A DNA stretch of 37,270 bases from a virus, in the IMG/VR virus record IMGVR_UViG_3300042691_033785, positions 1 to 37,270 of that record. One strand, 5' to 3'. Positions 1 to 28,332 of this stretch are shown here, one piece after another (the first letter of the stretch is position 1; each line of letters begins with the position of its first letter). Made by a program: the position numbers and the translations under genes. The notes beneath the pieces are model-generated. The model was not told the DNA's origin. It was given only the letters and a program-made list of their open reading frames with translations, and made no database searches.

Positions 1-799
1 CTGGCTGTCCACCTTTGATACAAATCCAACCCACTGGCATACCTGGCTCTGGTTGATCGTTCCATATTATACTGCCTGTTGGATAACTGCCTGTGGCAGG
101 TATTCCATTACCGGATGAAAACGTTTTTCCAGCAAATTTAATATTTCCTGCTACTTCTAGAGATTCTACAGGATTTTTTACACCAATACCTAATTTTTCG
201 TAAATCACTATTTCACCAGTTGCCTTACAAGTTAATCTAGCTGTGTTATCTGTGCCTATGCTAAAAGCTTCGTGTGCATACGTGCCTACAAAACCCGAAT
301 CATTTTGGAATGTGGTTACTATTTCGTGTCCTTTAGCATAAACAGAAAATTCTTGAGAAGGAGCCATTGTATTGACACCCACTCTACCATCATTGGCATA
401 AAAAGTTTCTTTAACTTCTAAATTGTCCAATATACCCAACTGTTGTAGATTACTTTTTTTAACACTTTTTCCTAATCGATCTTTCCATAATACTTCATTG
501 CTATCAATCATTATAGCTTCCATAGTATTAATTTTAGGTACTTGTGCGTGAATATATTGTAATTTGTCCGCTACAACTGTGCCTTTTATTCGTAAATCTT
601 TTTCTATTGTAACAGCTTCGTTCTCTATTATAAGCTGAACATTGTCAGCAAGATCTTTTATTCCAGAACTGCTAAAATTAGTAATCGTTCCACCATCAAC
701 AAGATCCCCACTGAGACAGTTTTTATCCAGTTTTATTTGATTTAAATCAATAGATCTATTAGATATTTTTGTGGGTTTATTAATTGGCGAAAGAGACAT
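1..799 (-). CDS. Tail fibre-like protein, partial (C-terminus outside window)
   Basis: A leftward reading frame is open from the ATG at 799 to the window edge (266 codons, no stop), so the 3' end is missing. The product starts MSLSPINKPTKIS and has the look of a phage fibre: short beta-strand motifs such as GRVGVNT and LGIGVKNPVESLEVAGNIKF, of the kind seen in the neighbouring fibres. Near the break it reads WNDQPEPGMPVGWIC, resembling the 'GWxC' segment common in phage fibre and tip proteins (family knowledge). It is divergent from the fibre gene at 860. A late promoter octamer (CATAAATA on the minus strand, 807-814) ends only 7 bases before the ATG, and no Shine-Dalgarno is visible. Fibre class is fairly secure; receptor and exact position in the tail are unknown. 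Confidence 0.75.
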   Translation of the reverse strand, partial: MSLSPINKPTKISNRSIDLNQIKLDKNCLSGDLVDGGTITNFSSSGIKDLADNVQLIIENEAVTIEKDLRIKGTVVADKLQYIHAQVPKINTMEAIMIDSNEVLWKDRLGKSVKKSNLQQLGILDNLEVKETFYANDGRVGVNTMAPSQEFSVYAKGHEIVTTFQNDSGFVGTYAHEAFSIGTDNTARLTCKATGEIVIYEKLGIGVKNPVESLEVAGNIKFAGKTFSSGNGIPATGSYPTGSIIWNDQPEPGMPVGWICIKGGQP

Positions 800-5037: not shown

Positions 5038-6090
5038 ATGACAACAAGAAACTTTAGAGTTAATAACGGACTATCAGTGGGTGATGTCGCTATTAGCGCT
5101 ACAACAAATAAAATAACAGGATTAACAACTGCTGCACCAACAGCAGACGGAGATTCAGCCAACAAAAAATACGTAGACGACTCGATTGCTGCTCTATCAT
5201 TTGCAACTATCGGTACAGGCAATACAAGTATCACAGTGACAGATTCAGGCACTGGATCAATTGCAACTGTAGTAGACGGTACCACAGTGCAAACGGCCAC
5301 AGCGTCTCAAACTACATTTGCTAGCGACGTTAGAATCAACGGTAACTTAACAGTATCTGGAACAAACACTATTATCAATACCACTACATTATCAGTAGAA
5401 GACAATATCATTGAAGTGAACAGAAACGTTTCTGGCAATGCAGGAATGCCTTCTATGTCTGGATTAAAAGTAAACAGAGGTGAAACATCATCTGCCACAG
5501 AACAAGATCTGTTTTGGGTTTGGGATGAAACATTTGCAGATGACGCTTCTACTATCTATGCAGCTGCCGCTGGTGGTGCATGGACTGCACTGAGAGCGAA
5601 TTCTACCAACGATCCAGGATTTATAAACTCGCAAGACGCGACTTTAGTGGACATACGATGCAGAATCGTTAACGCTACAGCAACTTCAGCTCAATACGCG
5701 GATATCGCGGAGAGATTTGCAGCAGATGCTCCAATGACTGAAGGCGCAGTGGTTATGTTGGGTGGAACACAAGAAATTACTGAAACTTCAGAAGAACTTT
5801 CTGAAAAAGTTTTTGGTGTTATTTCTTCAAAACCAGCTTACATGATGAACTCAAGTGCTGGTAACAACGAATCACATCCTTTTGTGGCTATGACTGGTAG
5901 AACTCCTGTGAGAGTTATCGGCGCAGTTAACAAAGGTGACAGAATAGTATCATCTAGCGTAAAAGGCACTGCTAGAGCTGCTAAAACTGGCGAATCAATC
6001 AACCCTTTCCACGTTATTGGAAGAGCTCTTGAGAGCAAATCTGATGCAGGTATTGGAATGGTAAATTGTTTCGTTCAAGCAAAGAACTAA
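5038..6090 (+). CDS. Tail fibre protein with Peptidase_G2-like C-terminal domain (350 aa)
   Basis: A 350-residue fibre with a different N-terminus (MTTRNFRVNNGLSVGDVAI) from its neighbours. 'ANKKYVDD' near residue 45 is a common fibre motif. Residues about 95-180 carry the GNLTVSGTNTIINTT, VEDNIIEVNRN and WVWDE module shared with 860 and 2869. Residues about 215-350 (QYADIAERFAADAPMTEGAV, GVISSKPAYMM, FVAMTGRTPVRVIGAVNKGD) resemble the Peptidase_G2 or intramolecular-chaperone type C-terminal domain of other phage fibres, which folds the trimer and may cut itself off (family knowledge; the cleavage site is not identified here). GGGAGA at 5023-5028 supports the ATG at 5038. A strong terminator follows. 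Confidence 0.8.
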   Translation: MTTRNFRVNNGLSVGDVAISATTNKITGLTTAAPTADGDSANKKYVDDSIAALSFATIGTGNTSITVTDSGTGSIATVVDGTTVQTATASQTTFASDVRINGNLTVSGTNTIINTTTLSVEDNIIEVNRNVSGNAGMPSMSGLKVNRGETSSATEQDLFWVWDETFADDASTIYAAAAGGAWTALRANSTNDPGFINSQDATLVDIRCRIVNATATSAQYADIAERFAADAPMTEGAVVMLGGTQEITETSEELSEKVFGVISSKPAYMMNSSAGNNESHPFVAMTGRTPVRVIGAVNKGDRIVSSSVKGTARAAKTGESINPFHVIGRALESKSDAGIGMVNCFVQAKN

Positions 6091-6233: not shown

Positions 6234-9200
6234 ATGGCTATAGGCCGTATATCTGGTTCAATGTTGAAATCTAACCTGACTAGAAACGGGGTAGATCTAG
6301 CATTTGAAACCAACATTCTTTATCTTGACGTTACTAACGCACGAGTTGGAATCGGGACTTCTTCTCCATCAACAGCATTACAAGTCGACGGCACAACCAC
6401 TACCACAGGGTTGGTAGCAGGTGGTCTAACCTATCCCACAGCAGATGGCAGCAACGGTCAAGTGCTGACTACAAATGGCACTGGTACATTAAGTTTCACA
6501 AATTTAAGTCCTTTTACAGGTATCACTTTCGTAGGCGATGATTCCTCAGGTTCTACAATCAACACAGCAGAGACCCTAAGATTTACAGGTGGCAACAACA
6601 TCACTACTGCAGTGGTGAACGATATAGTTACTATCACTGGCAGCACCAACATTAATGTCAATGAGATATCCAGCACCGACAGCTCGGCTATACAGATCAA
6701 CGACTCGATCAATGTTTCTGGCAACATCACGTTGCCCAAAGAAACCAATGCCAGCGTGATCGCTGACACATTCATCACTAGGAACGCACACATAGAGGCA
6801 GCTACTACTGCAGTAGTGAACCTAACCGTCACTGTGGGTTCTAAACCAGCAGACGGCAAGTGGTTCGGTCAGGGATCCACCGCATGTTACTACATCAACG
6901 GAGTGGCAGCACCCTACATAGACATACAGCAAGGCAAGATATATAGATTCAACCAATCAGCTGCCAGCAATTCCACTCATCCTATCAACATTTACTATGA
7001 TGAATACAAGAGCAGGGTATTTCCAGATTTTTCTGGCTCCAGCTCATATGTGACACAGGTGGGCACAGCCGGAACCAGTGGTGCCTACACCGAGTTGTAT
7101 ATAGATTTTCCAAGTAGAGGACGATTGTCATATCAGTGTCAAAACCACGCATTCATGGGATCTTTCATCGTAGTTAAAGGATCTGGAGACCCAATACAGT
7201 TTGTCAGTGACGACAGCTCAGGATTCTATGTGGGCGGCAATGAATCCGTTAGGATAGCAGGCGGCAACAGCATCGACACCACTGCCTCACAGGATTCCAC
7301 AGACACCATCACCATAGCTCTGTCAAATGCAATAACCATAAACGAGATATCATCCACAGATTCCACTGCCATACAGATCAACGACGGATTGAACGTATCA
7401 GGCACACTGACTGCTAACACCATACAAACCAATGAATTATCCAGCACTGAATCCACTGCTATACGAGTGAATGACAGTTTAAATGCCAGCGGCACTATCA
7501 CAGCCGCAAGTTTTGTCACTCACGGTACATCAGGCAGTATCACAGGTGTTAATAATATCGAAGTTAATCAGATTTCCAGCAATGATTCTACTGCTGTGCA
7601 AGTTGCAGATGGCATGAATGTGTCTGGCACTCTAACAGCGCCAACATTCGTTACCAACAACATCAGTTCCGGTGATTCTACTGCTATACAGGTCAATGAC
7701 GGATTGAATGTGTCAGGCACACTGAGTGCAGATGTGTTGGATGTGAATGAGATATCATCATCTGATTCATCTGCTATACAGATCAATGATGCTGTGAATG
7801 TATCTGGCACGTTCACTGCCAAAACCATTGTTACCAATGATTTAACATCAGAGGACTCCACAGCCATACAGATCAATGATGCTGTGAACATTAGTGGCAT
7901 ATTGAGTGTGAGTGGCAATGTCATTTCGAATGTGAGTGATCCAATCGCCAGTCAAGATGCAGCCACAAAAAATTATGTGGATTCTATAGTCGGTGGTAGC
8001 AATACATTAACTATCGCTGATGATACCAGCACAACCGGTTCCATTAATTTGGATAATACGCTGCAGGTTTTGGGTGGTAACAATATTACAACATCTATCA
8101 GTGGCAGTACGTTAACTATATCTGGAGACAAAATTATAGATGTTAATGAAATTAATTCTGGAGATTCATCTGCTATACAGATCAATGACGCTGTAAACAT
8201 ATCAGGCACACTTAATGCTAAAACTATTGTGACCAACGATTTAATATCTGAAGATTCTACTGCTATCAATGTGTTGGATGGCATGAATGTGTCAGGCACA
8301 CTGAGTGCAGATGTGTTGGATGTGAATGAGATATCATCATCTGATTCATCTGCTATACAGATCAACGACGCTGTGAACATATCAGGCACACTTAATGCTA
8401 AAACTATTGTGACCAATGACCTCGTATCAGAGGACTCAACGGCTATCAATGTGCTGGATGGATTAAATGTGACCGGCGATTTATCTATAAGTGGTGGTGA
8501 TATTACTGTTCCTTCAGGAAATTTAACAATTACAACTCCTGCAATTGGTACGCAATTAATATTAAATCCAAACGGAAGCGCAGTTGATATTGGAAACCTG
8601 TTTGGATTAGGTATAATAATTAATCGCGACCAAACATATTTTTATAAAGGTGTTGAAATAACAGGAAGTTTAACTGTAAATACGATATCATCCGCTGATT
8701 CATCGGCCATACAGATCAATGATTCGTTGAACCTTTCAGGCACGCTGACAGCCAACTCAGGCTTGGTAGCTAACGGTATCACTTATCCTACCACAGATGG
8801 CACCAGTGGTCAAGTGCTAATCACAAACGGTGCTGGTACATTAAGTTTTACAAGTATTAATTCATTCCCCGGAATCACATTCGTAGGTGATGACTCCACA
8901 GGCAGCACAATTAACACAGCAGAAACTCTAAAATTTTCAGGTGGCAACAATATTACCACTGCTGTTGTTGACGATATAGTTACTATCACTGGCAGCAAAA
9001 ACATCAATATTAATTCAATATCTTCTGAAGATTCATCTGCTATACAGATCAATAGTTCAGTGAATGTATCAGGCACTTTAAGCTCTAATTCCATAGATGT
9101 TAATGAGATCAATTCTGAAGATTCATCTGCTATACAGATCAATAGTTCAGTGAATGTATCAGGCACTTTAAGCTCTAATTCCATAGATGTTAATGAGATC

Positions 9201-11705
9201 AATTCTGAAGATTCATCTGCTATACAGATCAACGATGCTGTGAATGTATCCGGTACATTCCATGCTGCAACTATTGTGACCAATGATTTAATATCTGAAG
9301 ATTCTACTGCTATCAATGTGTTGGATGGCATGAATGTGTCAGGCACTTTAACAGCCAACACTGCTGTGATCAACAATATCAATACCTCAGACTCCAGCGA
9401 CATACACATCAATGGTGCTTTTGTGAATTTTGATGGAGGGGGAACAGTATTATTTGATAATCAAGCCACTCTCAACAATCTAGCCGATGTGGAGATAACC
9501 AATCCGCAGACCGACCAATTCCTAAGATACAACGGTGCATACTGGGTAAACGGTCAAGGAGCCACAGTGTCCGCAGGTGTGGGAGTGGGATTTTGGCTGA
9601 CAGCTCCTACCATATCTGGAGTGAATGCCAACAACGATAATCCTGTTGCTTCGTTGTCCATATCACCGGGTACCACCACAGAATTAACCATCACCAAAGC
9701 CATCAACAACACCACAGATATCATTGCTGCATTCGTATCCGGTGCTCTGAACAGAACCACATGGGACGGTGGTAACTATCTATTCTCTAATCACATGTAT
9801 GTGGACAGCAACGTGGGCACAACCACAGCCACAGATGCCATCTACACAGTGTTGCCTTTTGTAACCGGTACAGTGACCATCACAGGCACTGGCACATCGA
9901 GAACTGCCACAGCGTCAGCTGGCACCCCATTCGCTGCAGCTGCCATAGATGCTTCGGCCACTATCACAGATGCTTCATTCTTACAAACACCACAGGGACT
10001 GTATCAGATCACTGCTCGATCATCCGACACAGTGGTCACTATCACCACTCCATCAGGCTATACCAATGAGTCAGCTGTGGCTGGTACTGTGTGGAAGAAA
10101 TATTTTGTAGGCAATCCCACAGTGGAAATCAATTCCACCACAGTGGCAGAGTACGACACAAACACTACCAAAGGAGCACTGCCGGTAACCAACAACACTC
10201 GAATAGGTCTTATTGTATTTGGTACAACTACTTCCAACAGAACTGTTTCCATAGTGTATGATGCATCATTGAATGCCTCTAGCTTCACCACACCACTGGC
10301 AGCACAGCACAAGGATCTGGCAGGACTGCAGGGTGGACAATCGAATGAATTCTATCACTTGACAGCAGCAGAATACACTGGCACTGGCACAGGCGCCTTT
10401 GTGCGAACAATCGGTCCTGATCTAACCAATCCGCACATCACAGGATCACTGCATGTGACCACCATCGATTCTACCGACAGCACCACTATAGAAATAAATT
10501 CGGGCGTGGATGTTAACGGTACATTGTTGGCACCTACATTTATTACGAACAATATCAGCTCATCAGACTCCACTGCTATACAGATTGATGATGCTGTGAA
10601 TGTGGGTGGCACTCTAAATGTAAGCGGCACATTGAATGCTGCGACTATCGTTACCAACGATATCAGTTCCGGTGACAGCACTGCCGTGCAGATCAACGAC
10701 GGATTGAATGTGTCAGGCACACTGAGTGCAGATGTGTTGGATGTGAATGAGATATCATCATCTGATTCATCTGCTATACAGATCAATGATGGTATAAATG
10801 TTTCTGGTGTTATAACCGGTGGAAATCATGTTATTGCATCTCAGAATCTTATTAGTAGTAATAGTTCTGGAGATGAGGGTGGAGAAATACTATTGGCCAA
10901 ACCACAAACCAACACAACATTAATTGGTACTGGTGTTACTATAGATGCTTATCAAAATAGATTAAGATTTTTTGAACAAGGTGGTACTGCTAGAGGATAT
11001 TATGTTGATATTACCGAAGGAGATGCAGGTGCAAGTTCTAAACTAGCCACCAAAGCGTATGTAGATGGTCAAATTATTGCTGCTGGATCAGGCACTGTAA
11101 CATCTATCACAGCTGGCACAGGACTTACAGGTGGGACTATTACCACTACAGGCACAATAGCACTGGCCAAAATTATTGACGTTAATGAGATATCATCATC
11201 TGATTCATCTGCCATACAGATCAATGATGCTGTGAACATTAGTGGCATATTGAGTGTGAGTGGCAATGTCATTTCGAATGTGAGTGATCCAATCGCCAGT
11301 CAAGATGCAGCCACAAAAAATTATGTGGATAGTCAGCTTTCCAGTGTTTCATCTTCGTTCCTTGTAGCAGATGACACATCAACTATTGCCACAATAGATT
11401 CTGGAGACACTCTAAGAATCATAGGATCAGGCGGAATTACCACAGCAGTATCAGGAGATACCCTAACAATTGTAGGTTCAAATCCTGCACAGGGTATCAC
11501 ATTCTTTGATGAAGCTTCTACAAGCACAGCAATTCCTGATGGAGGAACCCTACAAATTACCAGCGGAGTGGGTATCAGCACTTCTATCCTAGGAAATGTG
11601 CTAACTATAACAAATACTTCAACGCAGTTGGAAATTGACGGCGGCAGTGCTTATTCAATATACAATGCCATTTCCGAAGCGTTGATTGACGGAGGAACTG
11701 CTTAA
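6234..11705 (+). CDS. Giant modular tail fibre with embedded cupredoxin-like domain (1823 aa)
   Basis: 1823 residues. Residues 1-45 are the tag shared with 860 and 2869. ITFVGDDSSGSTIN modules near 97 and about 880 recur in the 11707 and 13681 proteins. Residues about 195-316 look like a cupredoxin: YRFNQSAASNSTHPINIYY, GTSGAYTELYI, then SYQCQNHAFMG. The possible type-1 copper ligands H249, C302, H305 and M308 are present, with the C-x2-H-x2-M spacing of amicyanin. Most of the rest is about 21 copies of a 30-residue repeat around SAIQINDAVNVSGTL. Residues about 1053-1392 form a block also found in the 13681 protein, ending HKDLAGLQGG, EFYHLT, EYTGTGTG. Base composition changes sharply along the gene. 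AGGGAG at 6222-6227 supports the start. The stop precedes the next ATG by one base. Confidence 0.85.
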   Translation: MAIGRISGSMLKSNLTRNGVDLAFETNILYLDVTNARVGIGTSSPSTALQVDGTTTTTGLVAGGLTYPTADGSNGQVLTTNGTGTLSFTNLSPFTGITFVGDDSSGSTINTAETLRFTGGNNITTAVVNDIVTITGSTNINVNEISSTDSSAIQINDSINVSGNITLPKETNASVIADTFITRNAHIEAATTAVVNLTVTVGSKPADGKWFGQGSTACYYINGVAAPYIDIQQGKIYRFNQSAASNSTHPINIYYDEYKSRVFPDFSGSSSYVTQVGTAGTSGAYTELYIDFPSRGRLSYQCQNHAFMGSFIVVKGSGDPIQFVSDDSSGFYVGGNESVRIAGGNSIDTTASQDSTDTITIALSNAITINEISSTDSTAIQINDGLNVSGTLTANTIQTNELSSTESTAIRVNDSLNASGTITAASFVTHGTSGSITGVNNIEVNQISSNDSTAVQVADGMNVSGTLTAPTFVTNNISSGDSTAIQVNDGLNVSGTLSADVLDVNEISSSDSSAIQINDAVNVSGTFTAKTIVTNDLTSEDSTAIQINDAVNISGILSVSGNVISNVSDPIASQDAATKNYVDSIVGGSNTLTIADDTSTTGSINLDNTLQVLGGNNITTSISGSTLTISGDKIIDVNEINSGDSSAIQINDAVNISGTLNAKTIVTNDLISEDSTAINVLDGMNVSGTLSADVLDVNEISSSDSSAIQINDAVNISGTLNAKTIVTNDLVSEDSTAINVLDGLNVTGDLSISGGDITVPSGNLTITTPAIGTQLILNPNGSAVDIGNLFGLGIIINRDQTYFYKGVEITGSLTVNTISSADSSAIQINDSLNLSGTLTANSGLVANGITYPTTDGTSGQVLITNGAGTLSFTSINSFPGITFVGDDSTGSTINTAETLKFSGGNNITTAVVDDIVTITGSKNININSISSEDSSAIQINSSVNVSGTLSSNSIDVNEINSEDSSAIQINSSVNVSGTLSSNSIDVNEINSEDSSAIQINDAVNVSGTFHAATIVTNDLISEDSTAINVLDGMNVSGTLTANTAVINNINTSDSSDIHINGAFVNFDGGGTVLFDNQATLNNLADVEITNPQTDQFLRYNGAYWVNGQGATVSAGVGVGFWLTAPTISGVNANNDNPVASLSISPGTTTELTITKAINNTTDIIAAFVSGALNRTTWDGGNYLFSNHMYVDSNVGTTTATDAIYTVLPFVTGTVTITGTGTSRTATASAGTPFAAAAIDASATITDASFLQTPQGLYQITARSSDTVVTITTPSGYTNESAVAGTVWKKYFVGNPTVEINSTTVAEYDTNTTKGALPVTNNTRIGLIVFGTTTSNRTVSIVYDASLNASSFTTPLAAQHKDLAGLQGGQSNEFYHLTAAEYTGTGTGAFVRTIGPDLTNPHITGSLHVTTIDSTDSTTIEINSGVDVNGTLLAPTFITNNISSSDSTAIQIDDAVNVGGTLNVSGTLNAATIVTNDISSGDSTAVQINDGLNVSGTLSADVLDVNEISSSDSSAIQINDGINVSGVITGGNHVIASQNLISSNSSGDEGGEILLAKPQTNTTLIGTGVTIDAYQNRLRFFEQGGTARGYYVDITEGDAGASSKLATKAYVDGQIIAAGSGTVTSITAGTGLTGGTITTTGTIALAKIIDVNEISSSDSSAIQINDAVNISGILSVSGNVISNVSDPIASQDAATKNYVDSQLSSVSSSFLVADDTSTIATIDSGDTLRIIGSGGITTAVSGDTLTIVGSNPAQGITFFDEASTSTAIPDGGTLQITSGVGISTSILGNVLTITNTSTQLEIDGGSAYSIYNAISEALIDGGTA
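6816..7181 (+). other. Cupredoxin-like domain coding segment
   Basis: Codons about 195-316 of the giant fibre. H249 (6978-6980) lies in STHPI; C302 (7137-7139), H305 and M308 lie in CQNHAFM. This arrangement of one upstream His plus C-x2-H-x2-M is that of type-1 copper sites such as amicyanin. The fold assignment comes from reading motifs, not from a structure search. Confidence 0.6.
7863..7982 (+). repeat. 120-bp direct repeat, copy 1
   Basis: Identical base for base to 11211-11330, exactly 3348 bases (1116 codons) downstream, in the same frame. It encodes the SGILSVSGNVISNVSDPI and QDAATKNYVD segment. Confidence 0.85.
9031..9230 (+). repeat. Perfect 90-bp tandem duplication
   Basis: 9031-9120 and 9121-9210 are identical, and the first 20 bases of a third copy follow at 9211. 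The unit encodes exactly one 30-residue fibre repeat (SSAIQINSSVNVSGTL and flanks), so the duplication keeps the frame. Confidence 0.95.
9390..10410 (+). repeat. Paralogous ~340-codon fibre block, copy 1
   Basis: Encodes IHINGAFVNF through TGTGTGAFVR. The block at 14401-15414 in the other giant fibre matches along its whole length, most strongly in PFVTGTVTITGTGTSRTATA and QTPQGLYQITARSSDTVVTI. Confidence 0.85.
11211..11330 (+). repeat. 120-bp direct repeat, copy 2
   Basis: Identical to 7863-7982, in the same gene and frame. Confidence 0.85.
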
Positions 11706-11706
11706 A

Positions 11707-13314
11707 ATGGCACAGATTAGATTACGAAGAGACCAATCGGCAAACTGGGCATCAGCCAATCCTACACTGGCTGCTGGAGAAGCTGGTTTTGAATTAGACA
11801 CTCGTCGAATCAAAATTGGTGATGGTGCCACAGCATGGAACGATCTAGCCTACGTAAGAACAGAATTCACAATATCAGATGATGATTCTACCTCAGAATC
11901 ATTTTATTCCGGTCGAACACTTAATGTAAAAGGATCTGGAAATATCACTACATCTCTAGTAGATGACACATTAACAATTACAAGCACAGGAGCAGCACAA
12001 GGTATCACATTCGTAGGTGATGACTCAACTGGCATAAGAATTTCTGATGGTGAAACAATAAAAATTGCTGGTGGCACAGGTATCAGCACTTCAATGTCAT
12101 CAGATTCCACCGGTGACGTATTGGTTATCAGTGCTGACGGAACCACTGCAGTGGCCAATGTGCTGTATGTTTCCAAGAGTGGATCTGATTCCAACGATGG
12201 TCAAACTCTTGCCACATCATTCTTAACTATCAAAGCAGCTCTAGCAGTAGCCACCACAGGCACCACAGTGTTTGTCAAGAGCGGAGATTACACAGAAGTC
12301 AATCCAGTGACCATACCAGCTGGTGTGGCTCTAGTGGGAGACAATTTGAGAACCACCACAGTGAGACCACTCACTACCAATGCTGATTTATTCTATATGA
12401 ACAACAAAGTCTATGTAACAGGATTTACTTTCCGAAGCCACGTGAGTCCCGGAGCAGCATTTGCATACAACCCCAACGGTTCAGCAGGCACAATTGTGAC
12501 CAGTCCTTATGTGCAGAACTGTTCCAGTATCACAACCACCGGTACTGGTATGAGAATTGACGGTTCACATGCTGCAGGATTAAAATCCATGGTTGTGGAT
12601 GCCTACACACAGTTCAACTCAGGCGGACGAGGAGTACATATTTTAAATGATGGGTATGCACAATTGGTGAGCTTGTTCACTATCTGTTGCAATATCGGTG
12701 TGCTGTGCGAGAGTGGTGGACAGTGTTCTATCACAAACTCTAACACATCTTTCGGCACATATGGATTGAAAGCCGATGGAGTGGGCACTGCTTTATTCAC
12801 AGGATTGACCAATGGTGCCAACCAGAGCGGAACCACTATCATCATAGACGGTTTATCCTCTAGGCCAGCTGTCAATGATGTGGTAAAATTTGATGGAGAT
12901 GTGAATTATTATACCATAGTATCTTCTACTGCTGTGAACAGCAGTGGAGAATCCACAGTGACATTATTGGAAACTGTGAGAGACGCCATCGCCAACAACA
13001 CCACAGCAACATTCTATAAGAGATCATTAATATCTGCCAGCGGCCACACATTTGAATATGTGGGCTCAGGTGATGATTTAACCACTGCACTGCCATCAGG
13101 CGGCGGAGTGCCTGTACAAGAGAACGAGATCGTACAGGTCAACGATGGACAAGTTTACTACACCAGCACAGATCACAAGGGTGATTTTAGGATTGGTGAT
13201 GACCTGTTGTTCAACCGAGCAACAGGAACAATAACCGGAAGGACGTTCAGCCGAAGTTTATTTGCGGTTTTAACTCCTTACATATTAGCCCTAGAAGGCT
13301 CATTGAACAACTAA
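11707..13314 (+). CDS. Tail spike or fibre with Mtd-like N-terminus and beta-helix (535 aa)
   Basis: The ATG at 11707 is chosen because GGAGG (11691-11695) lies 11 bases upstream and MAQIRLRRDQSANWASANP is the classic start of this family. Residues 1-50 (ending TRRIKIGDGATAWNDLAYV) resemble the N-terminal domain of phage tropism-type and fibre proteins. An ITFVGDDSTG module lies near 100. From about 150, LYVSKSGSDSNDGQTLATSF and FVKSGDYTEVNPVTIPAGV indicate a right-handed beta-helix of the pectate-lyase or DUF1565 type. The C-terminus (FEYVGSGDDL, GDFRIGDDLLFNRATGTI, FSRSLFAVLTPYILALEG) is, from memory, shared with marine myovirus fibres. It is coupled to the upstream giant fibre (stop at 11703-11705). 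No active site could be assigned. Confidence 0.8.
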   Translation: MAQIRLRRDQSANWASANPTLAAGEAGFELDTRRIKIGDGATAWNDLAYVRTEFTISDDDSTSESFYSGRTLNVKGSGNITTSLVDDTLTITSTGAAQGITFVGDDSTGIRISDGETIKIAGGTGISTSMSSDSTGDVLVISADGTTAVANVLYVSKSGSDSNDGQTLATSFLTIKAALAVATTGTTVFVKSGDYTEVNPVTIPAGVALVGDNLRTTTVRPLTTNADLFYMNNKVYVTGFTFRSHVSPGAAFAYNPNGSAGTIVTSPYVQNCSSITTTGTGMRIDGSHAAGLKSMVVDAYTQFNSGGRGVHILNDGYAQLVSLFTICCNIGVLCESGGQCSITNSNTSFGTYGLKADGVGTALFTGLTNGANQSGTTIIIDGLSSRPAVNDVVKFDGDVNYYTIVSSTAVNSSGESTVTLLETVRDAIANNTTATFYKRSLISASGHTFEYVGSGDDLTTALPSGGGVPVQENEIVQVNDGQVYYTSTDHKGDFRIGDDLLFNRATGTITGRTFSRSLFAVLTPYILALEGSLNN

Positions 13315-13680: not shown

Positions 13681-16600
13681 ATGAGTAGTGGAAGAATAAA
13701 GAGCGGCAAGGTAAAAAAGATTGCACCTACAGCGGTATCCGCGGATAGGTATAATTTTATACAGTTGTCAGAAACAGAACCGGATTTAGGCGTACCTGCA
13801 TCAACAGGGTATGTACTAACCAGCGACACATCTGGAAACAGATCTTGGGTGTTGGCCGCTTCAACTCTGGAAACTTCTCCTATTACTTTCGTAGGCGATG
13901 ATTCCACAGGAACCGGTGTTAATCTTGGCGAAACATTTAAATTTAAAGGTGGAAATAATATCACCACTGCAGTAATTGGAGATGAAATAACCATCTCTGT
14001 CAGCAAAATTTTAGACGTTAACGAATTATCCAGTTCTGATAGCACAGCGATACAGATCAATGATGCAGTAAACATCAACGGTTTATTAACTGTAAGTAAT
14101 TCCATCAACGTTGATGGTTTATACATTTATAACAACAACATAACCACCACTCGTACCAATGACAACCTTGTTCTAAGTGCCAGCGCTTCCGGCAGAGTGT
14201 ACGTTGAAGATGATTTTGAAGTAACAGGCACAGCTTATCTAAACAATGTTACTGTGACAGGCACTGCTACATTGCCAGTAATAAAAACTAATTCAATATC
14301 CAGCGATGACTCAACCACAATATTAATTGATGATTCTGTAAGTGTTAGTGGAACATTAACAGTTGGTAATGCTGTTATCAACAGAATAGTAACCAATGAT
14401 TCTAGTGATATCAACATCAATGGTGCTCCGGTTAATTTTGCTGCTGGTGGAGAGGTACTGTACAAAAATACTGCTACCTTAGACAATCTAGCAGATGTAC
14501 ATATAGAAAATCCACAACTGGATCAATTCATAAGATACAATGGTGTAGAATGGGTGAACGGATCTGGCGCTGCAGTGTCCGCAGGTGTGGGAGTTTCTTT
14601 CTATCTCGCAGATCCCACAATCACTGCCACAGGCGCTAACAATGATAACGAGATTATCACCATGCAGAACTTTCCTGGCACTGCAGGAGAACAGACAGTT
14701 TCCAAAGCCATCAACAACACCACAGACATTATTGCCGCTTTTGAAACCGCTGCTCTGAACAGAACCGCCATTGATGCAGGTAACTGGTCATTCATTAACC
14801 ATGCTTATGTGGACACCAGCTCAGGCACAACCACCATTGCGAACTACATATACAAAGCAGTGCCTTTTGTGACCGGCACAGTGACCATCACAGGCACCGG
14901 CACATCAAGAACTGCCACAGCTTCAGCAGGCACACCATTTGCTACTTCAGCTATAGATGCTTCGGCTACCAACACCACAGCATCATTCTTACAAACACCA
15001 CAGGGTCTGTATCAAATCACTGCTCGCTCATCTGACACTGTGGTCACTATCACCACACCAACCACCTACACCAATGAGTCAGCAGTGGCAGGTACTGTGT
15101 GGAAAAAATTATTTGGCACTGCACAATCACCGGTGGTCAACTCCACAGTAACAGCGAATTACAATATAGATGCCACAGAACCACTATACTCTATCACTGC
15201 TGCCACAAAACTGGCCATGATAGTGTTTGGTACCACAACCACAGCTATAACACTGACCTATGTGTATGATGGTCAAAACAATGCTTCATTGGTGGTATCT
15301 CCTCTGTCACTGCGACACGATGATTTGGCAGGACTGCAGGGTGGTACAGTGGACGAATTCTATCACTTGACACAATCAGAATACACCGGCACAGGTACAG
15401 GCAACTTTGTGCGAGCATCTGCTCCTACTATTGCCAATCCTTCGGTTACAGGCACATTGAATGTAAATGAAATTGCATCATCTGACAGCACGGCGATACA
15501 GATCAACGACGGTGTAAACATATCTGGTACATTAAATGCCAAAACTCTAGTAACCACGAACATCAGTTCAGAAGACAGCACAGCTATACAGTTCAATGAC
15601 GGTATCAATGTTGTTGGTTCTGTGCGATTGAGCGGATTGCAATATCCTAACGTAATTGGAGAAAACGGACAGGTATTGAGCAGCGATGGTACAGGAAACG
15701 TAGAATGGGCAACACTAACTGGCGGTGGTGGATCCAACGTTGCAGCGGATTCAGTTACATTTACAGGATTTGGAAGTAATAATATTGTTATATCTGATCC
15801 TAACATATCTGTTGATCTAGCAGGAGTGGTACAGTATGGTTCAGTGGACGATTCACAAGCTATTGGATCCTCTCAAGGAACATTTGATACATGGAGTGCC
15901 AATGATTATGACAGTGCATTTTACATTGCGGCCACACTAAACAACGATGCTGTTGAATATGCCACAGCATCTATATCTGCTGCTACCGATGGTGAGGCTG
16001 CTTTTGTGGGGTCTGGAGGAGTAGTTAGCACTGGAGATCAAGGACAAATAACATTTTCAGCAGGATTTGCCAATCCTAACGTGACGATATACGGTACAGG
16101 ATCAACTTCTAACAATACAGCCAGCTATCTAAGAATAGCACTAGGTGATTCTACCACCACATCATCCACAACATCACAGGCGATGGCTGTGGTAAACACT
16201 ATCACTGTTTCTGCTACCATTGTCACAGCCAACATTTCTGTGGGAGATACTGTAGGTATTACAACAGCGCCTAAAATTGCAGATCAGTTCACTGGTACCA
16301 GTAACGACAGCACTGTGGCCTATGACAGTGCATTCTATCTAGCAGTTTCCAAAGATGAAGTTAGTGGAGAGGTAGGTACCTCTTTAGTTTCTTTAGTGCA
16401 AGATGGAACTGATGTATACACTTCTACATATGGTTTAACTGCTTCTGGAGACAACGACAATCAAATGAGTTATTCGGCTACTTTAGCAGACCTAGACGAG
16501 GATTCTACCTATGAAACTGTGAGATTATATGCTACAGGTACTACAAATTTAAACTCTTTAAAATATCACAGAATCAATCTTGGTCCTAGTACCGTAGAAT

Positions 16601-19254
16601 CTGGAACCAATCCAGCAATGAGTTTGTTAGCAGCCGAAGAATACAACAACACTGTGGTAAATTCAAATGTGCAAGTAGGGGAGATGGAGAACATTGGATT
16701 GAATGAAAAAGTTACCGACGTCTTCGCTACGTCAGCTTTAAAGAGCGCATTCTATTTTGCAGTTACACAAGAAGAGAATAGCGGAGAGATTGGCACTGCT
16801 GAGATTTCATTATTGCATAATGGTACCACAGCTTTTGTTGCTTCTGGTAACGTGTGTCAATCTGGCACAGAAGACCAGGTTGTTTTTGGAGCAGATATCA
16901 CTAACAACAAAGTGAGATTGACTAGTACCGGTTCAACCAATCTTAATTCTGTAAAATATTATCGAGTAGGATTAGGTACCAGCACCACTGCTGCATCATC
17001 TGGCAATGTTGCTACATTAGTATCCACAGGATTAGGATCTACAACTACTGTGCTGGACAGTTGGAGTAAGACCACTTACAGAGCAGCAAGATATTATATC
17101 AGTGCCACATCTGCTAATGGAGAAGTAAGCAACATTGAAGTGAGATTATTCCACGATGGCACACTGTCTTACATCAACACATTCAATGATATCTTTTCTG
17201 GCAACAACACTCTTATCACACTGACTACTGACATATCTGGAGGCAATGTGAGATTATTGGCTTCTTGTAATTTTAACACCACTGTGAGAAGCTATAGAAT
17301 AAGATTAAGTGACTCAGAGTCCGGATCTTCTGGTTCTTATATTAATATTATTGGTGCTACATCAATATCATCTACGACAGGCGAAACATTTGACTCATTT
17401 AATGCTACCACATACAATGGAGCACACTATATTGTTTCCGTTTCTAACAGCACTCTAAACACTGCTGCATTATATGACGTATTTGTAGTCAGCGATGGAA
17501 CCAATGCTTTTGTTTCTTCAAACTATGCATCTTCAGACAACACTGCTCACATAAATTTCACTGTATCACAGGCAGGCAACACAGTTACTCTTAAAGCTGC
17601 AACCTATGATGGTACCAGCTATACACTTAATGCTTATAGAACACATCTATTGAGGGACAATGGTGGTTACAGAGTGTTGGACTCATGGAGCAAGAGTACC
17701 TATAGAGGTGCCAAATACTATATTTCTGCCAGTGCTACCGACACAGGAGAGAAACAAAATATCGAAGTATTGGTTACACACGATGGCACAACTCCTTACG
17801 TAACCACTTACAATCCTTTATACACCGGTAACAGTGCTCTTATGGATTTTGATGTAGAGATAGTGTCTAGTACATTCAACTTATTGGCTAAAAATCCACG
17901 TGAGAAAAATTTTACTGTGAGAATGTATCGAGTAATGTTAACTGATTCTGAATCTAATTCAACCACAACATACAACAAAGTGGTAGGTACCACAAATGTG
18001 GGATCCAGCGAACAGGCCATAGACACATTCGCATCTAATGCTGTTACAGGAGCTCATTACATAGTGACTGCTTACAACGCCACAGAAGCAGTGGCCGAAG
18101 TATCAGAAGTATTTGTGGTTACAGATGGCGCAGATGCCTATGTATCCAGCCATGGTTTATCTACAAAAAATACTGCTAATCTAACATTTACCGCAGCATG
18201 GGCTGGAGGCACAGTGACTCTATCTGCTGCTAGCAGCAGTGGAGGTACCACAGTGGTAAATGCCTACAGAACCAATCTATTGAGAGAGACCAACACAGGA
18301 TTGAACACTATTGACAGCTGGAGCTCATCTTCATTCAGAGGAGCCAAATACTATATTTCTGCCAAAGATACTGATTCTGGAGAAGTCAGCAACGTTGAGG
18401 CTTTACTAGTACACGATGGCAGTGTGGCATATGTGATGCCATACAATCAAGTCAACACCAATATTAACGACACTCCTTTGATCACTCTAGCAGCGGATAT
18501 ATCTGGAGGCAATGTGAGATTATTAGCGAATGCTCCTACATCAGTGAACTACGATGTTAGAATGTACAGGATTAGATTGCAAGATTCGGAAACTGCTAAC
18601 GCAGGAACGTATACCAAAGTATTAAACAGTGTGACTGTAACATCGTCTGCCACAACAGTCGACGAGTGGAGTTCTGTTTCCAACGATGACAGCTCGCAGG
18701 CATATGTGGCTTGTAATTATTTTGTAACAGCTTATAACTCCACTGAAGGCACAGCATCAGCCTATGATGTGTATGTGTCCAGCGAAGGTGTGGTAGCAGC
18801 GGTAGCTAGCAGTTTTGTGTCTTCTAAAAATAATGAAATGTTAACATTTGATGTGATACACACCAACGGAGTGGTGACTCTAAGTGCTATCAGCAACAGC
18901 GGAGGAAATACTACAGTGAACGCCTACCGATGGAATATACCTAAACCTGCTACTGTGGATCCATTTAAAACACTAGACTCATGGAATAAAACCCTTTATC
19001 GTGGTGCCAAATACTTCATCACAGTGTCAGCTACCAACCTAGGAGAGTATGATGCTCAGGAAGTGGCAGTGGTACACAATGGCACAGATGCTTACAATAC
19101 TGTGTATAACCTTGTAACCACAGGTAATTCATACCCTACAGGACTGATAAGCATCACATCTGATGTGCAAGGTAGCTTGGTAAGATTAAAAGCCACATCA
19201 AATGGTGAATCTATACTGAAAGTTACCATGGTTAGACACAGAACTGTGGTATAA
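13681..19254 (+). CDS. Giant modular tail fibre with ten C-terminal tandem domains (1857 aa)
   Basis: 1857 residues. The start (MSSGRIKSGKVKKIAPTAV) is basic and unlike the other fibres. Residues about 75-115 carry ITFVGDDSTGTG. A few SSDSTAIQINDAVNI repeats follow, then a block at about 240-580 homologous to the 6234 protein (same HDDLAGLQGG, EFYHLT, EYTGTGTG ending). From about residue 735 to the end are ten tandem units of roughly 90-110 residues with the pattern D-x-W/F, Y-x-(G/S)A-x-Y, DGT, G-x-V-x-L, YR-x-x-L. The last seven alternate between a 'DSWSK..YRGAKYYIS' type and a 'GAHYIVTAYN' type. Such repeats suit a long elastic stalk or a multivalent receptor-binding end (inference). No strong Shine-Dalgarno; GGCAAAGA precedes the ATG. 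Confidence 0.8.
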   Translation: MSSGRIKSGKVKKIAPTAVSADRYNFIQLSETEPDLGVPASTGYVLTSDTSGNRSWVLAASTLETSPITFVGDDSTGTGVNLGETFKFKGGNNITTAVIGDEITISVSKILDVNELSSSDSTAIQINDAVNINGLLTVSNSINVDGLYIYNNNITTTRTNDNLVLSASASGRVYVEDDFEVTGTAYLNNVTVTGTATLPVIKTNSISSDDSTTILIDDSVSVSGTLTVGNAVINRIVTNDSSDININGAPVNFAAGGEVLYKNTATLDNLADVHIENPQLDQFIRYNGVEWVNGSGAAVSAGVGVSFYLADPTITATGANNDNEIITMQNFPGTAGEQTVSKAINNTTDIIAAFETAALNRTAIDAGNWSFINHAYVDTSSGTTTIANYIYKAVPFVTGTVTITGTGTSRTATASAGTPFATSAIDASATNTTASFLQTPQGLYQITARSSDTVVTITTPTTYTNESAVAGTVWKKLFGTAQSPVVNSTVTANYNIDATEPLYSITAATKLAMIVFGTTTTAITLTYVYDGQNNASLVVSPLSLRHDDLAGLQGGTVDEFYHLTQSEYTGTGTGNFVRASAPTIANPSVTGTLNVNEIASSDSTAIQINDGVNISGTLNAKTLVTTNISSEDSTAIQFNDGINVVGSVRLSGLQYPNVIGENGQVLSSDGTGNVEWATLTGGGGSNVAADSVTFTGFGSNNIVISDPNISVDLAGVVQYGSVDDSQAIGSSQGTFDTWSANDYDSAFYIAATLNNDAVEYATASISAATDGEAAFVGSGGVVSTGDQGQITFSAGFANPNVTIYGTGSTSNNTASYLRIALGDSTTTSSTTSQAMAVVNTITVSATIVTANISVGDTVGITTAPKIADQFTGTSNDSTVAYDSAFYLAVSKDEVSGEVGTSLVSLVQDGTDVYTSTYGLTASGDNDNQMSYSATLADLDEDSTYETVRLYATGTTNLNSLKYHRINLGPSTVESGTNPAMSLLAAEEYNNTVVNSNVQVGEMENIGLNEKVTDVFATSALKSAFYFAVTQEENSGEIGTAEISLLHNGTTAFVASGNVCQSGTEDQVVFGADITNNKVRLTSTGSTNLNSVKYYRVGLGTSTTAASSGNVATLVSTGLGSTTTVLDSWSKTTYRAARYYISATSANGEVSNIEVRLFHDGTLSYINTFNDIFSGNNTLITLTTDISGGNVRLLASCNFNTTVRSYRIRLSDSESGSSGSYINIIGATSISSTTGETFDSFNATTYNGAHYIVSVSNSTLNTAALYDVFVVSDGTNAFVSSNYASSDNTAHINFTVSQAGNTVTLKAATYDGTSYTLNAYRTHLLRDNGGYRVLDSWSKSTYRGAKYYISASATDTGEKQNIEVLVTHDGTTPYVTTYNPLYTGNSALMDFDVEIVSSTFNLLAKNPREKNFTVRMYRVMLTDSESNSTTTYNKVVGTTNVGSSEQAIDTFASNAVTGAHYIVTAYNATEAVAEVSEVFVVTDGADAYVSSHGLSTKNTANLTFTAAWAGGTVTLSAASSSGGTTVVNAYRTNLLRETNTGLNTIDSWSSSSFRGAKYYISAKDTDSGEVSNVEALLVHDGSVAYVMPYNQVNTNINDTPLITLAADISGGNVRLLANAPTSVNYDVRMYRIRLQDSETANAGTYTKVLNSVTVTSSATTVDEWSSVSNDDSSQAYVACNYFVTAYNSTEGTASAYDVYVSSEGVVAAVASSFVSSKNNEMLTFDVIHTNGVVTLSAISNSGGNTTVNAYRWNIPKPATVDPFKTLDSWNKTLYRGAKYFITVSATNLGEYDAQEVAVVHNGTDAYNTVYNLVTTGNSYPTGLISITSDVQGSLVRLKATSNGESILKVTMVRHRTVV
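14401..15414 (+). repeat. Paralogous ~340-codon fibre block, copy 2
   Basis: Encodes DININGAPVNF through TGTGTGNFVR, the counterpart of 9390-10410. Many stretches are near identical at DNA level. Confidence 0.85.
15881..19254 (+). repeat. Ten tandem ~100-residue coding repeats
   Basis: Units begin near TFDTWSANDY, ADQFTG, TDVFATS, VLDSWSKTTY, TFDSFNATTY, VLDSWSKSTY, AIDTFASN, TIDSWSSSSF, TVDEWSS and TLDSWNKTLY. The repetition is clear in protein and much weaker in DNA, so the array is old. Confidence 0.8.
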
Positions 19255-25236: not shown

Positions 25237-25266
25237 CATCAGTTATACTTGCAAGGAGAACTAAAA

Positions 25267-28200
25267 ATGGCATTAACATCACCAGGCGTAGAAGTTACAG
25301 TAATAAACGAGAGTTTCTATGTACCATCAGATGCGGGAACAACACCACTAATAATTGTTGCTGCAGCACAAGACAAATTAAACGGCGCAGGATCAGCCGT
25401 AGCATCAGGCACTAAAACTGCTAATGCAAATTCAGTATATTTGATCTCTTCTCAGAGAGAATTAACAGAGACTTTTGGAGATCCAAAATTCTACACAGAT
25501 TCAGGAAACAATTCTTTGAATGGTTATGAGCTAAACGAATACGGCTTGCAAGCAGCTTATTCATTCTTAGGTATTGCTAACAGAGCTTTTATATTAAGAG
25601 CAAATATCAATCTTTCACAATTGATTGGTAGTGCAACTGCTCCATCAGCTGCTCCAACCAACGGCAGTTATTGGTTTGATTTATCATCAAACGTTCCAGG
25701 AATATTTGAGTGGTCATCAACAGATCAAACATTCACTGCTATCGATCCAATCTACATCACATCAACTAGCGATCTAGTTGGAGGTGTGTCTACAGGAACA
25801 CCAAAAACAGCAATTGGTTCACAAGGTGATTATGCAATCAATACAACAAACAATGCAAATAAAATTTATTACAAGAATAGTTCTAATGCTTGGGTACAAG
25901 TAGGAACTGCTTCTTGGTCAGGTGGAACTAAACTATTCCAAATATCTGCACACTCAAGCAGACCAGAATGGAAGACAGCAGAAAACAATGCTCCAACTGG
26001 ATCTGTGTGGTTTAAGACAACCACTCCAAATTCAGGAGCAGACATTATTATTAAAAAATATAATTCCAGCACAAGTGCTTGGTCAGTGGTAGATGCTCCA
26101 CTGTATGCTAACAACCACTCAGCGATCTATGGTATAGATCCTGTAAATGGTGGAACTGGTATATCAGCAGGAACACTTTACACACAATACAACGCAGCAG
26201 AGCAATCAACTTTAGGTGCTTTTGACACTACTCCTAAACTGGCTGACTTTACAGTTTTCAAATACGAAGGTGGTGTTACATCAATCACTTCTAAAAACAC
26301 AACTCCATCTTTCACTAATGGGCATGAAATTAAAATTCAAGAATCACTAAAAGCTCAATCTGCTCTAGACACAGCAAAAACTGTAACTCTAGGTGGAACT
26401 GGTGCTGATGATTTTGTTGCAGCAATTAGCGCAGCAGGATTTACAAATATTTCTGCAACTAAACTTTCAACTGGTGCTATTAAAATTACTCATGCACTAG
26501 GTGGAGAATTTAGAATGTGGAACGTTTCTTCAGGCACAGCTCTAGCTGATGCAGGATTTGGAACATCTAATGCACACGATTATGGTTCTTACACAGCAAA
26601 CTCTGCAACCAAAGTGGACAATTTATATGTTGCTCCAGCTGGTTACACAGAAGATTCTACACAACCAGCAGTGGTTGTTGCTACAAATTGGAAACGTTTA
26701 AGCTACACAGCTTCAACATCAGAGCCAAGCAACGAACCAAGCAACGGAACTTTATGGTACAACACTAATTTAGAAGCTGATATCATGGTTCACAATGGAA
26801 CTGCATGGAAAGGTTATGTACAAGTTTATGCTACAACTGATCCAAATGGTCCGCAATTTTCATCAACTAAACCTACCACACAATCAGATGGTACTGCTCT
26901 AGTTGCAAATGATTTATGGATTGATACTTCAGATTTAGAAAACTATCCAAAAATCTATAGATACGATACAACATTAACAGATGGTGCTGATTTCGTATTA
27001 CTTGATAACACAGATCAAACTACAGAAACTGGTATAGTTTTTGCAGATGCTAGATGGCAAACTGACACTGACAAAGATGATTCATTATCATCTGGTGGAG
27101 CAGGAACAGCAAGTTCAATTAAAGCTCTTTTAAGTGATGACTTTGTGGATCCAGATTGTCCAGATCCAGCTCTATATCCAAAATCAATCTTGTTATTCAA
27201 CACAAGAAGATCAGGATACAATGTTAAAGAATATAGAAACAGCTACGTAACTACAGCCACATATCCAGGTTCTGGATCATCAGGCAAAGGTAACATTAGA
27301 TACGGCAACGAATCAGTATCTGGTTACTATCCAGACAGATGGGTAACTAAAAATGCTAATAACGATAACGGATCTGGCACTTTTGGTAGAAAAGCTGTGA
27401 GAAAAGTAATTGTTCAACAATTAAAATCAGAAATTGATACTAATCAAGCAATCAGAGAAGATCAAAGAGGATTTAACATTATAGCATGTCCAGGATATCC
27501 TGAAGTAATTGCTAACTTGGTTAATCTTAATACCGACAGAAACAACACATCTTTTGTTGTTGGAGATTCTCCAATGAGATTAGCAGGCACATCAACAGCT
27601 ATCACTAACTGGGCTAATAACTCAGCAGGTGCTACTGATAACGGAGACGAAGGTCTTGTTACTTCAAGTGATTATCTTGGTGTGTTTTATCCATCAGGAA
27701 GAACCACAGACAACACTGGTAACACAATCGTTGTTCCACCAAGTCACATGATGCTAAGAGTATTAGCTAACAATGACAACGTGGCATTCCCATGGTTTGC
27801 TCCAGCTGGTACAAGAAGAGGTATCGTTGACAATGCAACCTCAGTAGGATACATTGACAGTGCTACAGGAGAATTTGAACAGATTGCTTTAACTGAATCT
27901 ATTAGAGACAGTATGCATTCTGCAAAAGTAAATCCAATTACATTCTTCTCAGGAACAGGAATATTGAACTTTGGTAACTTAACTAAAACTTCTGAAAGTT
28001 CAGCTCTAGATAGAATTAACGTTTCAAGATTAACTGTTTATCTAAGAACACAATTAGACAAGATAGCTAAACCGTTTATATTTGAACCAAATGATTCTTT
28101 AACAAGAAATGAAATCAAAGCAGCTATCGAATCATTCTTGTTAGAACTAGTAGGTCAAAGAGCATTATATGACTTCTTAGTGGTGTGTGATGAAACAAAT

Positions 28201-28332
28201 AACACTGCTACAAGGATCGACAGAAATGAACTGTATGTTGACATAGCAATTGAGCCTGTGAAATCAGTTGAGTTTATCTACATACCTTTAAGAATTAAAA
28301 ACACAGGAGAAATAGCTAACTTGGGAGTTTAA
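25267..28332 (+). CDS. 18: Tail sheath protein gp18-like with large insertion (1021 aa)
   Basis: The ATG at 25267 follows AAGGAG by 8 bases and gives MALTSPGVEVTVINES, the standard sheath N-terminus. The core is recognisable at both ends: residues about 1-125 (RELTETFGDP, GLQAAYSFLGIANRAFILRA) and from about 720 to the end (PWFAPAGTRRGIVDNA, VNPITFFSGTGILNFG, NVSRLTVYLRTQLDKIAKPF, FEPNDSLTRNEIKAAIESFL). The sheath contracts to drive the tube into the host. T4 gp18 has 659 residues; the surplus of about 360 lies in the middle. It includes repeated 'G-x-(L/Y/V)W-(F/Y)' modules (NGSYWFDLSS, TGSVWFKTTT, NGTLWYNTN, ANDLWIDTSD), each followed by a Y/W strand such as HNGTAWKGY. These probably form surface-exposed beta domains (inference). 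gp19 follows by 28 bases. Confidence 0.93.
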   Translation: MALTSPGVEVTVINESFYVPSDAGTTPLIIVAAAQDKLNGAGSAVASGTKTANANSVYLISSQRELTETFGDPKFYTDSGNNSLNGYELNEYGLQAAYSFLGIANRAFILRANINLSQLIGSATAPSAAPTNGSYWFDLSSNVPGIFEWSSTDQTFTAIDPIYITSTSDLVGGVSTGTPKTAIGSQGDYAINTTNNANKIYYKNSSNAWVQVGTASWSGGTKLFQISAHSSRPEWKTAENNAPTGSVWFKTTTPNSGADIIIKKYNSSTSAWSVVDAPLYANNHSAIYGIDPVNGGTGISAGTLYTQYNAAEQSTLGAFDTTPKLADFTVFKYEGGVTSITSKNTTPSFTNGHEIKIQESLKAQSALDTAKTVTLGGTGADDFVAAISAAGFTNISATKLSTGAIKITHALGGEFRMWNVSSGTALADAGFGTSNAHDYGSYTANSATKVDNLYVAPAGYTEDSTQPAVVVATNWKRLSYTASTSEPSNEPSNGTLWYNTNLEADIMVHNGTAWKGYVQVYATTDPNGPQFSSTKPTTQSDGTALVANDLWIDTSDLENYPKIYRYDTTLTDGADFVLLDNTDQTTETGIVFADARWQTDTDKDDSLSSGGAGTASSIKALLSDDFVDPDCPDPALYPKSILLFNTRRSGYNVKEYRNSYVTTATYPGSGSSGKGNIRYGNESVSGYYPDRWVTKNANNDNGSGTFGRKAVRKVIVQQLKSEIDTNQAIREDQRGFNIIACPGYPEVIANLVNLNTDRNNTSFVVGDSPMRLAGTSTAITNWANNSAGATDNGDEGLVTSSDYLGVFYPSGRTTDNTGNTIVVPPSHMMLRVLANNDNVAFPWFAPAGTRRGIVDNATSVGYIDSATGEFEQIALTESIRDSMHSAKVNPITFFSGTGILNFGNLTKTSESSALDRINVSRLTVYLRTQLDKIAKPFIFEPNDSLTRNEIKAAIESFLLELVGQRALYDFLVVCDETNNTATRIDRNELYVDIAIEPVKSVEFIYIPLRIKNTGEIANLGV

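Follow-up and report, generated by a model that had tools for sequence, protein, structure and literature searches.

The DNA stretch analysed here (the window) is a viral sequence of 37,270 nucleotides, positions 1 to 37,270 of IMG/VR record IMGVR_UViG_3300042691_033785. It encodes a fibre protein of 1857 amino acids, P0001 (13681..19254, + strand), whose N-terminal part is shaft-like and whose C-terminal part is an array of ten domains; that the domains form three-domain modules (triads) nested within one another is well supported. The gene is located in a block of fibre-like genes, after which genes for tail sheath, tail tube, head closure and terminase follow; the terminase is at most 55.7% identical to the terminases of Pseudomonas phage PA5oct and similar phages. 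The window is a fragment of a T4-like phage, whose long tail-fibre protein has the array as its distal part.

Residues 733–1857 of P0001 consist of ten homologous beta-sandwich domains of about 90 residues (units U1 to U10, starting at residues 733, 865, 1010, 1123, 1235, 1331, 1445, 1542, 1658 and 1763) in the order S S S A B A B A B A. Units were located computationally with a profile of 867 domain sequences of other architectures, arrays of the window kind being left out. All ten were matched (i-Evalue 4.6e-9 to 1.7e-29; next best stretch 35), and 200 shuffled copies of P0001 gave no match to the same profile up to E 10. BLAST self-comparison of P0001 returned nothing beyond the self match. 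An earlier reading made from the sequence only had placed ten tandem domains at 15881-19254, at the end of the fibre; ten units were recovered at 15877-19251, a start within 4 bases of that position, and they occupy the very C-terminus (residues 733-1857 of 1857). The same reading had described the last seven units as alternating between two types, and this was borne out: identity was 39–48% among U4, U6, U8 and U10 (type A), 35–46% among U5, U7 and U9 (type B) and 22–32% between the two types. When 130 units of 15 proteins were placed in a tree, alternate copies grouped by type, type A forming one clade (43 rows, support 99/93) and type B another (35 rows, 100/98). U1–U3 are a third type, S, which was not a single clade in this tree. 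Because the A and B clades take in units of quite different arrays, the two types are older than the array in the window and do not stem from a recent pair duplication there. A10 and its counterparts in seven related proteins formed a clade of their own among the A domains (100/99).

Relatives were collected from IMG/VR. A protein query with the last seven units returned seven loci; homologues of the window kind have the same domain order as far as each reaches, the four with both ends being 1857–1861 residues long and L015, with a shorter N-terminal part, at most 1675. The start of U9 differs in L004–L006, where it is 7 residues shorter. Profile searches with type A and type B gave 332 and 42 relatives, of which the best 80 of 332 and all 42 were used; this first set of 123 loci plus the window yielded 121 non-redundant open reading frames (ORFs) with 563 domains. 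A further set of 110 new non-redundant ORFs, from the best 80 of each of two more scans, was not used to find the rule described below; its domain types were assigned by first-set profiles, with slightly widened gap classes.

Linkers in the window alternate in length, with 23–24 residues from A to B and 7–9 from B to A. Across the first set, gaps between neighbouring domains fell sharply into 6–9, 23–28, 41–46 and >90 residues, one gap of 2 being a boundary artefact in L015. Linker lengths were read as brackets, with 20–29 residues (widest ranges) joining members of the same module, 41–46 opening and 5–10 closing a nested one, and the array in the window is then parsed as S1-42-[S2-41-[S3-23-A4-24-B5]-7-A6-23-B7]-8-A8-23-B9-9-A10. 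The innermost triad (layer 3; all features on the + strand) comprises S3 (U3, 16708..16977), A4 (U4, 17047..17310) and B5 (U5, 17383..17649), with the first strands of A4 and B5 in the S3-A4 linker (16978..17046) and the A4-B5 linker (17308..17379). The middle triad (layer 2) comprises S2 (U2, 16273..16584), A6 (U6, 17671..17943) and B7 (U7, 18013..18279), with the first strand of B7 in the A6-B7 linker (17941..18009). The outermost triad (layer 1) comprises S1 (U1, 15877..16146), A8 (U8, 18304..18582) and B9 (U9, 18652..18939); the A8-B9 linker (18580..18651) lies outside the structure models and by analogy would hold the first strand of B9. The last domain of the protein is A10 (U10, 18967..19245), a single cap domain. 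Pre-strand segments lie in front of S1 (15808..15876), S2 (16219..16272; strand 14-22 of the two-triad model described below) and S3 (16651..16707).

The bracket rule yields triads almost throughout. In first-set ORFs with at least three domains, 155 of 166 gap-parsed layers had three members (SAB 89, EDG 38, xAB 24, four with an unclassified member); where the first domain begins at least 100 residues into the ORF, the figure was 133/135, both misses coming from L015, in which one domain boundary was drawn too early. Uncut capped arrays of this set had 4, 7, 10 or 13 domains. In untruncated multi-domain ORFs of the further set, 132 of 133 layers were exact triads (xAB 75, SAB 51, EDG 6), and the lone exception is a single domain in L205. 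L180, with 16 domains in the order SAxSAxAxABBBABBH, is resolved into S A[x[S A[x A[x A B]B]B]A B]B H, five triads plus cap, an order that would arise from no pair duplication. Over both sets, first-position (S or x), A and B domains were equal in number in 63 of 64 capped arrays, which show 11 distinct orders; the 64th, L156, ends at a contig edge. Modules have one or three domains and never two in untruncated ORFs (three two-domain ORFs begin at a contig edge), and array size varies between viruses by whole triads, from one to five; what is inserted is a whole triad. In all, the rule fits nearly three hundred modules in related virus sequences. The inference drawn earlier from the alternation, that the duplicated unit was a pair, was not supported by these counts: the module is a triad, as seen in the 63/64 capped arrays and in the 132/133 layers of ORFs outside the rule-finding set, and the number of pairs does not vary independently of the other domains.

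The site of insertion was examined in the linkers. L019 and its near-twin L020 read E-24-D-42-[S-23-A-23-B]-8-G, an SAB triad within an EDG triad; elsewhere D and G are contiguous, with a gap of 23 residues in 40/40 cases. The 42-residue linker of L019/L020 starts as a normal D-to-G linker (38.4 bits versus at most 1.4 for the other classes), and an extra segment then follows. The beginning of an A-to-x opening linker resembles an A-to-B linker (26.6 bits; 22.4 when the own family is excluded; other classes at most 2.0), and that of an x-to-x opening linker resembles an x-to-A or S-to-A one (16.3 and 12.8 bits). Insertion would thus have taken place right behind a normal linker, as far as linker sequences indicate.

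Layer trees were calculated per position for 18 of the 53 H-capped arrays (42 triads). Nine of the 11 layer-2 A domains, taken from arrays of 2, 3, 4 and 5 triads, formed one clade (97/96), and the array position of such a domain is 4, 7, 10 or 13, depending on the amount nested inside; short and long arrays are thus grouped across inserted layers, which counts further against duplication of pairs. One clade (98/89) also held 7 of the 11 layer-2 x domains, and nine layer-2 B domains shared a clade with layer 3 of four-triad arrays (94/90). The inner (layer-2) triads of L157 and L165 grouped with the innermost triads of longer arrays at all positions (99/96, 100/99, 100/91). These clades imply that triads are mostly inherited as units, even if they are split in the sequence.

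Structures were predicted with AlphaFold2 for A6-B7-A8 (103 rows; predicted local distance difference test (pLDDT) 91.9, predicted template modelling score (pTM) 0.73) and, as a monomer, for S2[S3 A4 B5]A6 B7 (the two-triad model; 699 residues, 58 rows, pLDDT 90.4, pTM 0.69). Each modelled domain has seven core strands, and linkers of 23-24 residues hold one more. In the two-triad model an adjacent first strand is present for every domain but A6, and the first half of the S2-S3 opening linker (16585..16650) contains a spare strand at model residues 141-147 (window 16615-16635), about 345 residues upstream of A6. This strand is proposed to complete A6, whose first strand appears to lie across the inserted triad. 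Chain 9ma0_A of Epstein-Barr virus (EBV) gp350, a match of fold only, was aligned to model residues 135..582 (chain 2..126, 87 residues, root mean square deviation (rmsd) 3.9, Z 3.3), and 8sm0_G likewise to 135..582 (93 residues, rmsd 3.3, Z 4.9); in the shorter A6-B7-A8 model, the alignment of 9ma0_A was confined to the A core (1..93, chain 15..126). Since the Z-scores are middling (3.3-4.9) and the ranges give the first and last aligned residue only, these alignments support a split domain indirectly. Nested insertion, in the sense of a host domain interrupted in sequence and completed across the insert, is supported by both the alignments of the two-triad model and L019/L020, and it is recursive, with two to five triads nested per chain.

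The modelled fold was matched to that of the C-terminal domain of the T4 baseplate protein gp9 (1qex; also 9f4a chain LA, Klebsiella phage KP1 variant Lilla1), likewise an eight-stranded beta-sandwich with the linker strand first. B7 together with its linker strand gave the best match, being placed on gp9 170-285 by VIA-align (Z 12.2-12.7, rmsd 2.3-2.4, 106-108 residues); the fold is superposable on gp9 167-288. In Foldseek, gp9 had rank 2 (probability 1.00, E 1.4e-3) and the rank 1 hit a probability of 0.20. Against predicted viral proteins (BFVD), the A-B-A model reached a query-based TM-score (TMq) of 0.56-0.58 on three predicted phage proteins and about 0.24-0.30 on most other matches, as if two of its three domains superposed on those proteins at once. 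Regarding the possibility, left standing by the sequence-only reading, that the units match a well-described domain, the fold of the gp9 C-terminal domain is such a match, and curated sequence families gave none: P0001 had no family match in either Pfam (up to E 0.1) or PHROGs (up to E 0.01), and a known curated family was rejected for it within these two libraries. Two of six relatives tested, L029 and L071, weakly matched phrog_5639, whose function is unannotated, inside the array (E 2.8e-5 and 8.5e-5, about 35 residues); L029 also weakly matched phrog_25363 there (E 0.0019), L098 and L105 matched PHROGs of unknown function outside the array, and L036 and L045 none. In Pfam, L071 alone of the six gave a match (E 0.061), below the family cut-off. 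By sequence, no PDB chain was found for P0001 up to E 1, and a four-sequence A-type profile found only cystatin (E 0.1), which was judged not relevant.

Several results weigh against the nested arrangement or limit how much its support counts for. The gap class tracks the types of both neighbouring domains, for which reason gap parse and type order are not fully independent, and the counts are not independent events, as many arrays are close relatives. The linker test by itself can only show a normal linker plus an extra segment, because the preceding domain type is identical. In the window kind itself the S-to-S linkers fit S-to-A linkers by a few bits (5.5-7.3 versus at most 1.1), so that the first half of the S1-S2 opening linker (16147..16215), proposed to hold the first strand of A8, is weakly S-to-A-like. 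A first beta-strand has also been proposed, by eye, for the cap A10 (DSVTFTGFGSNN, 15748..15795, + strand), which is suggestive only; similar segments were seen by eye upstream of S1 in 4-, 7- and 10-domain arrays of the window kind. By profile this cap strand is weak (median 1.2 bits over 45 arrays; 17 uncapped controls, -9.6 to 2.6), and the profile test was rejected as support, being too weak to count. In the layer trees, the S and 6/7 A domains of SABH arrays (7 of 10 used) grouped with the outermost layer and all B domains with inner ones. With SABH and outermost triads forced into one clade, p in the approximately unbiased (AU) test was 0.47, 0.0098 and 0.0014 at positions 1-3, so that simple orthology of SABH triads and outermost triads was rejected at positions 2 and 3; this conflict implies that exchange between layers must also occur. 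Layer pairs within the window kind likewise differ by position (S, U2+U3, 99/90; A, U6+U8, 96/90; B, U5+U7, 95/43), from which it follows that units have probably also been exchanged. Of the structural results, the pTM of the two-triad model falls short of values near 1, the Z-scores with gp350 are the middling ones given above, and no predicted viral protein in BFVD matched the whole two-triad arrangement: on the same three proteins its TMq was 0.43, 0.29 and 0.16, by which the larger arrangement is not confirmed there.

Taking these results together, we regard it as very probable that the array is the nest S1[S2[S3 A4 B5]A6 B7]A8 B9 + A10, with triads that are probably single-chain pseudo-trimers. 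In this reading the units are gp9-like beta-sandwiches of seven core strands plus a first strand from the preceding linker, and further triads were inserted into existing ones between the first strand of a domain and its core; the A-B-A-B-A-B alternation is what the successive closing halves of the nest add up to. One triad in one chain would supply three different copies, replacing a gp9-like trimer of three chains, and every added triad would lengthen the fibre tip by one layer, with A10 (H in the sister kind) as a homotrimeric base present once per chain. That the triad is probably a pseudo-trimer is deduced from the trimerisation of the gp9 domain in T4 and from the modules having one or three domains, never two. 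Stacking as a rod, which had been suggested for paired domains, is still plausible if triads are what stacks. The usual interpretation of a repeat array in an adhesin or fibre is duplication head to tail; in this family the same kind of alternation arises by three-domain modules being inserted recursively, a caution for the domain annotation of other 'alternating repeats'. The rule is simple, as linker lengths alone suffice for parsing, and it fits arrays outside the set in which it was found. If triads are pseudo-trimers, a homotrimeric tip can become a one-chain stack of distinct layers, in which the three positions may specialise and the fibre lengthens without its symmetry being broken. 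The natural series of none to five inserted triads bears on fibre growth, split-domain folding and host range.

A more detailed geometry is offered tentatively, at somewhat below an even chance: pseudo-trimer triads would be stacked as nested layers on the last domain as a homotrimeric platform, giving three single-chain columns and a branched tip, its length governed by nesting depth. If so, the protein sequence would obey a context-free, bracket-like grammar in its linker lengths. A doubtful but serious alternative is that nesting is real and the triad is an open row or wedge, three chains building nine-domain layers in a homotrimeric fibre. Long tail fibres are usually homotrimers, the two-triad model is a monomer with a pTM of 0.69, and among predicted viral proteins none is a good match to the entire arrangement, all of which suit such layers. 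They are opposed by the absence of two-domain modules from untruncated ORFs, by four named phage records with one such domain at the protein C-terminus, and by the trimerisation of the matching gp9 domain (passages on gp9 in PMC10253068).

As to function, the fibre tip most likely carries receptor-contacting surfaces. It is unlikely that the array is chiefly a spacer whose layers determine how far the tip reaches, with another fibre or shaft loops binding the receptor, although array size does differ between viruses by whole triads and several other fibre-like genes are present in the window. The array is the C-terminal end, at which fibres usually bind, and in the more distant orthologues L004-L007 identity to the window is higher for A units (79-87%) than for B units (63-74%), a pattern to be expected from changing selection on some faces; this last point is weakened by the nearer orthologues L002 and L003, in which A and B do not differ (A 79-91%, B 84-89%). 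A linear tandem array, with an A-B pair duplicated head to tail and S triplicated apart to give beads or a rod, would account for the strict alternation in the last seven units, the higher identity within types and the single A and B clades, and is very improbable in view of the equal numbers of S/x, A and B domains in all capped arrays but the one cut by a contig end, orders such as SAxSAxAxABBBABBH and ED[SAB]G, opening linkers with an extra strand and a modelled A6 that is not complete and contiguous; tandem duplication of AB pairs was rejected on equal counts, triad parses and layer trees.

Folds like gp9 at fibre ends and recursive domain insertion are already known; no description of nested triads in phage fibres was found among the titles and abstract openings listed by searches of open-access literature. 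gp9 has one such domain per chain and is the trimeric fibre socket of the baseplate (PMC3004832 and PMC10253068); its C-terminal eight-stranded domain, termed a beta-barrel in the latter, is described there as serving in trimerisation and as attachment site of the long fibre. The array and gp9 share the phage tail context. Identity between them is 15%, and no sequence-profile link was found in the Pfam, PHROGs and PDB searches. Unlike gp9, a short baseplate protein with one such domain, P0001 has 1857 residues and ten domains, and in the family described here up to 16 copies per chain are nested at the fibre C-terminus. Klebsiella phage RaK2 gp529 has a predicted C-terminal tail-fibre domain (one domain, residues 448-584) whose best Dali match is also T4 gp9, a likeness by description only (section on gp529 in PMC10253068). 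A similar fold is found near the C-terminus of fibres or spikes in Fri1 gp49 (6c72), vB_ApiP_P1 (6e1r) and Kp9 gp42 (7xy1), with Z 9.8, 9.3 and 7.8 for the three-domain model and 5.5, 5.7 and 4.5 for the larger one; unlike the array, these show one matching stretch per chain and no nesting. The Si3 insert of the cyanobacterial RNA polymerase beta' subunit is likewise built by recursive domain insertion, up to six levels, but belongs to a cellular enzyme, and the available part of its description mentions no triad rule or bracket-like linkers (PMC13114784); in the array, whole three-domain modules are inserted, and the size of the array differs from virus to virus. The BACON domains of crAssphage are another case of repetition within a phage protein, being tandem repeats according to the title of PMC6949934.

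Among named phages, a DNA search gave nothing and protein searches few, weak matches. S-SM2, DSL-LC02, S-SRM01 and C48C1 each have a protein of the same sequence family with a single domain rather than triads, placed at the very C-terminal end (E ~1e-16 to 1e-23), annotated as baseplate wedge subunit in S-SRM01 and as tail fibre protein in the other three; three chains of such a protein would supply the three copies. A stretch of P-SSM7 had no clear family domain, and neither did two 50-kb pieces of the 208-kb genome of S-SKS1, which was among the best viral structural matches. In bacterial and archaeal genomes, searched with the A-type profile of A8 only, 15 pattern matches contained 0 relatives. 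The cap H of the sister kind formed one distance cluster with single-domain H fibres often encoded beside arrays. Such type-H fibres are encoded directly behind H-capped arrays in L041, L069, L071, L073, L075, L085 and others, and type-D single-domain fibres are encoded upstream of EDG-SAB arrays. Directly behind the array gene, L002 (9079-9819) and L003 (5584-6324) have an additional open frame of about 247 codons, and the window is without one there.

Among the neighbouring genes in the window, a fibre-like protein of 1823 residues (6234-11705) has, by eye, a near-identical stretch FVTGTVTITGTGTSRTATASAGTPFA in common with the middle of P0001 (~14461-15391), and shaft repeats of about 30 residues, SSDSTAIQINDxVNVSGTL, were seen by eye in both proteins. 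DNA repeats of 90 bases are present in the region of this neighbour at 8162-8419 and 9023-9250. Upstream of the array gene, 11686-13314 encodes a Major tropism determinant N-terminal domain (Pfam PF18454, E 8.4e-15). Residues 209-274 of a small fibre-like protein (5038-6090) match the Peptidase_G2 autoproteolytic chaperone domain (E 1.8e-6). The tail sheath protein (25249-28332; PHROG 10581, E 4.7e-221) is very long, with 1027 residues.

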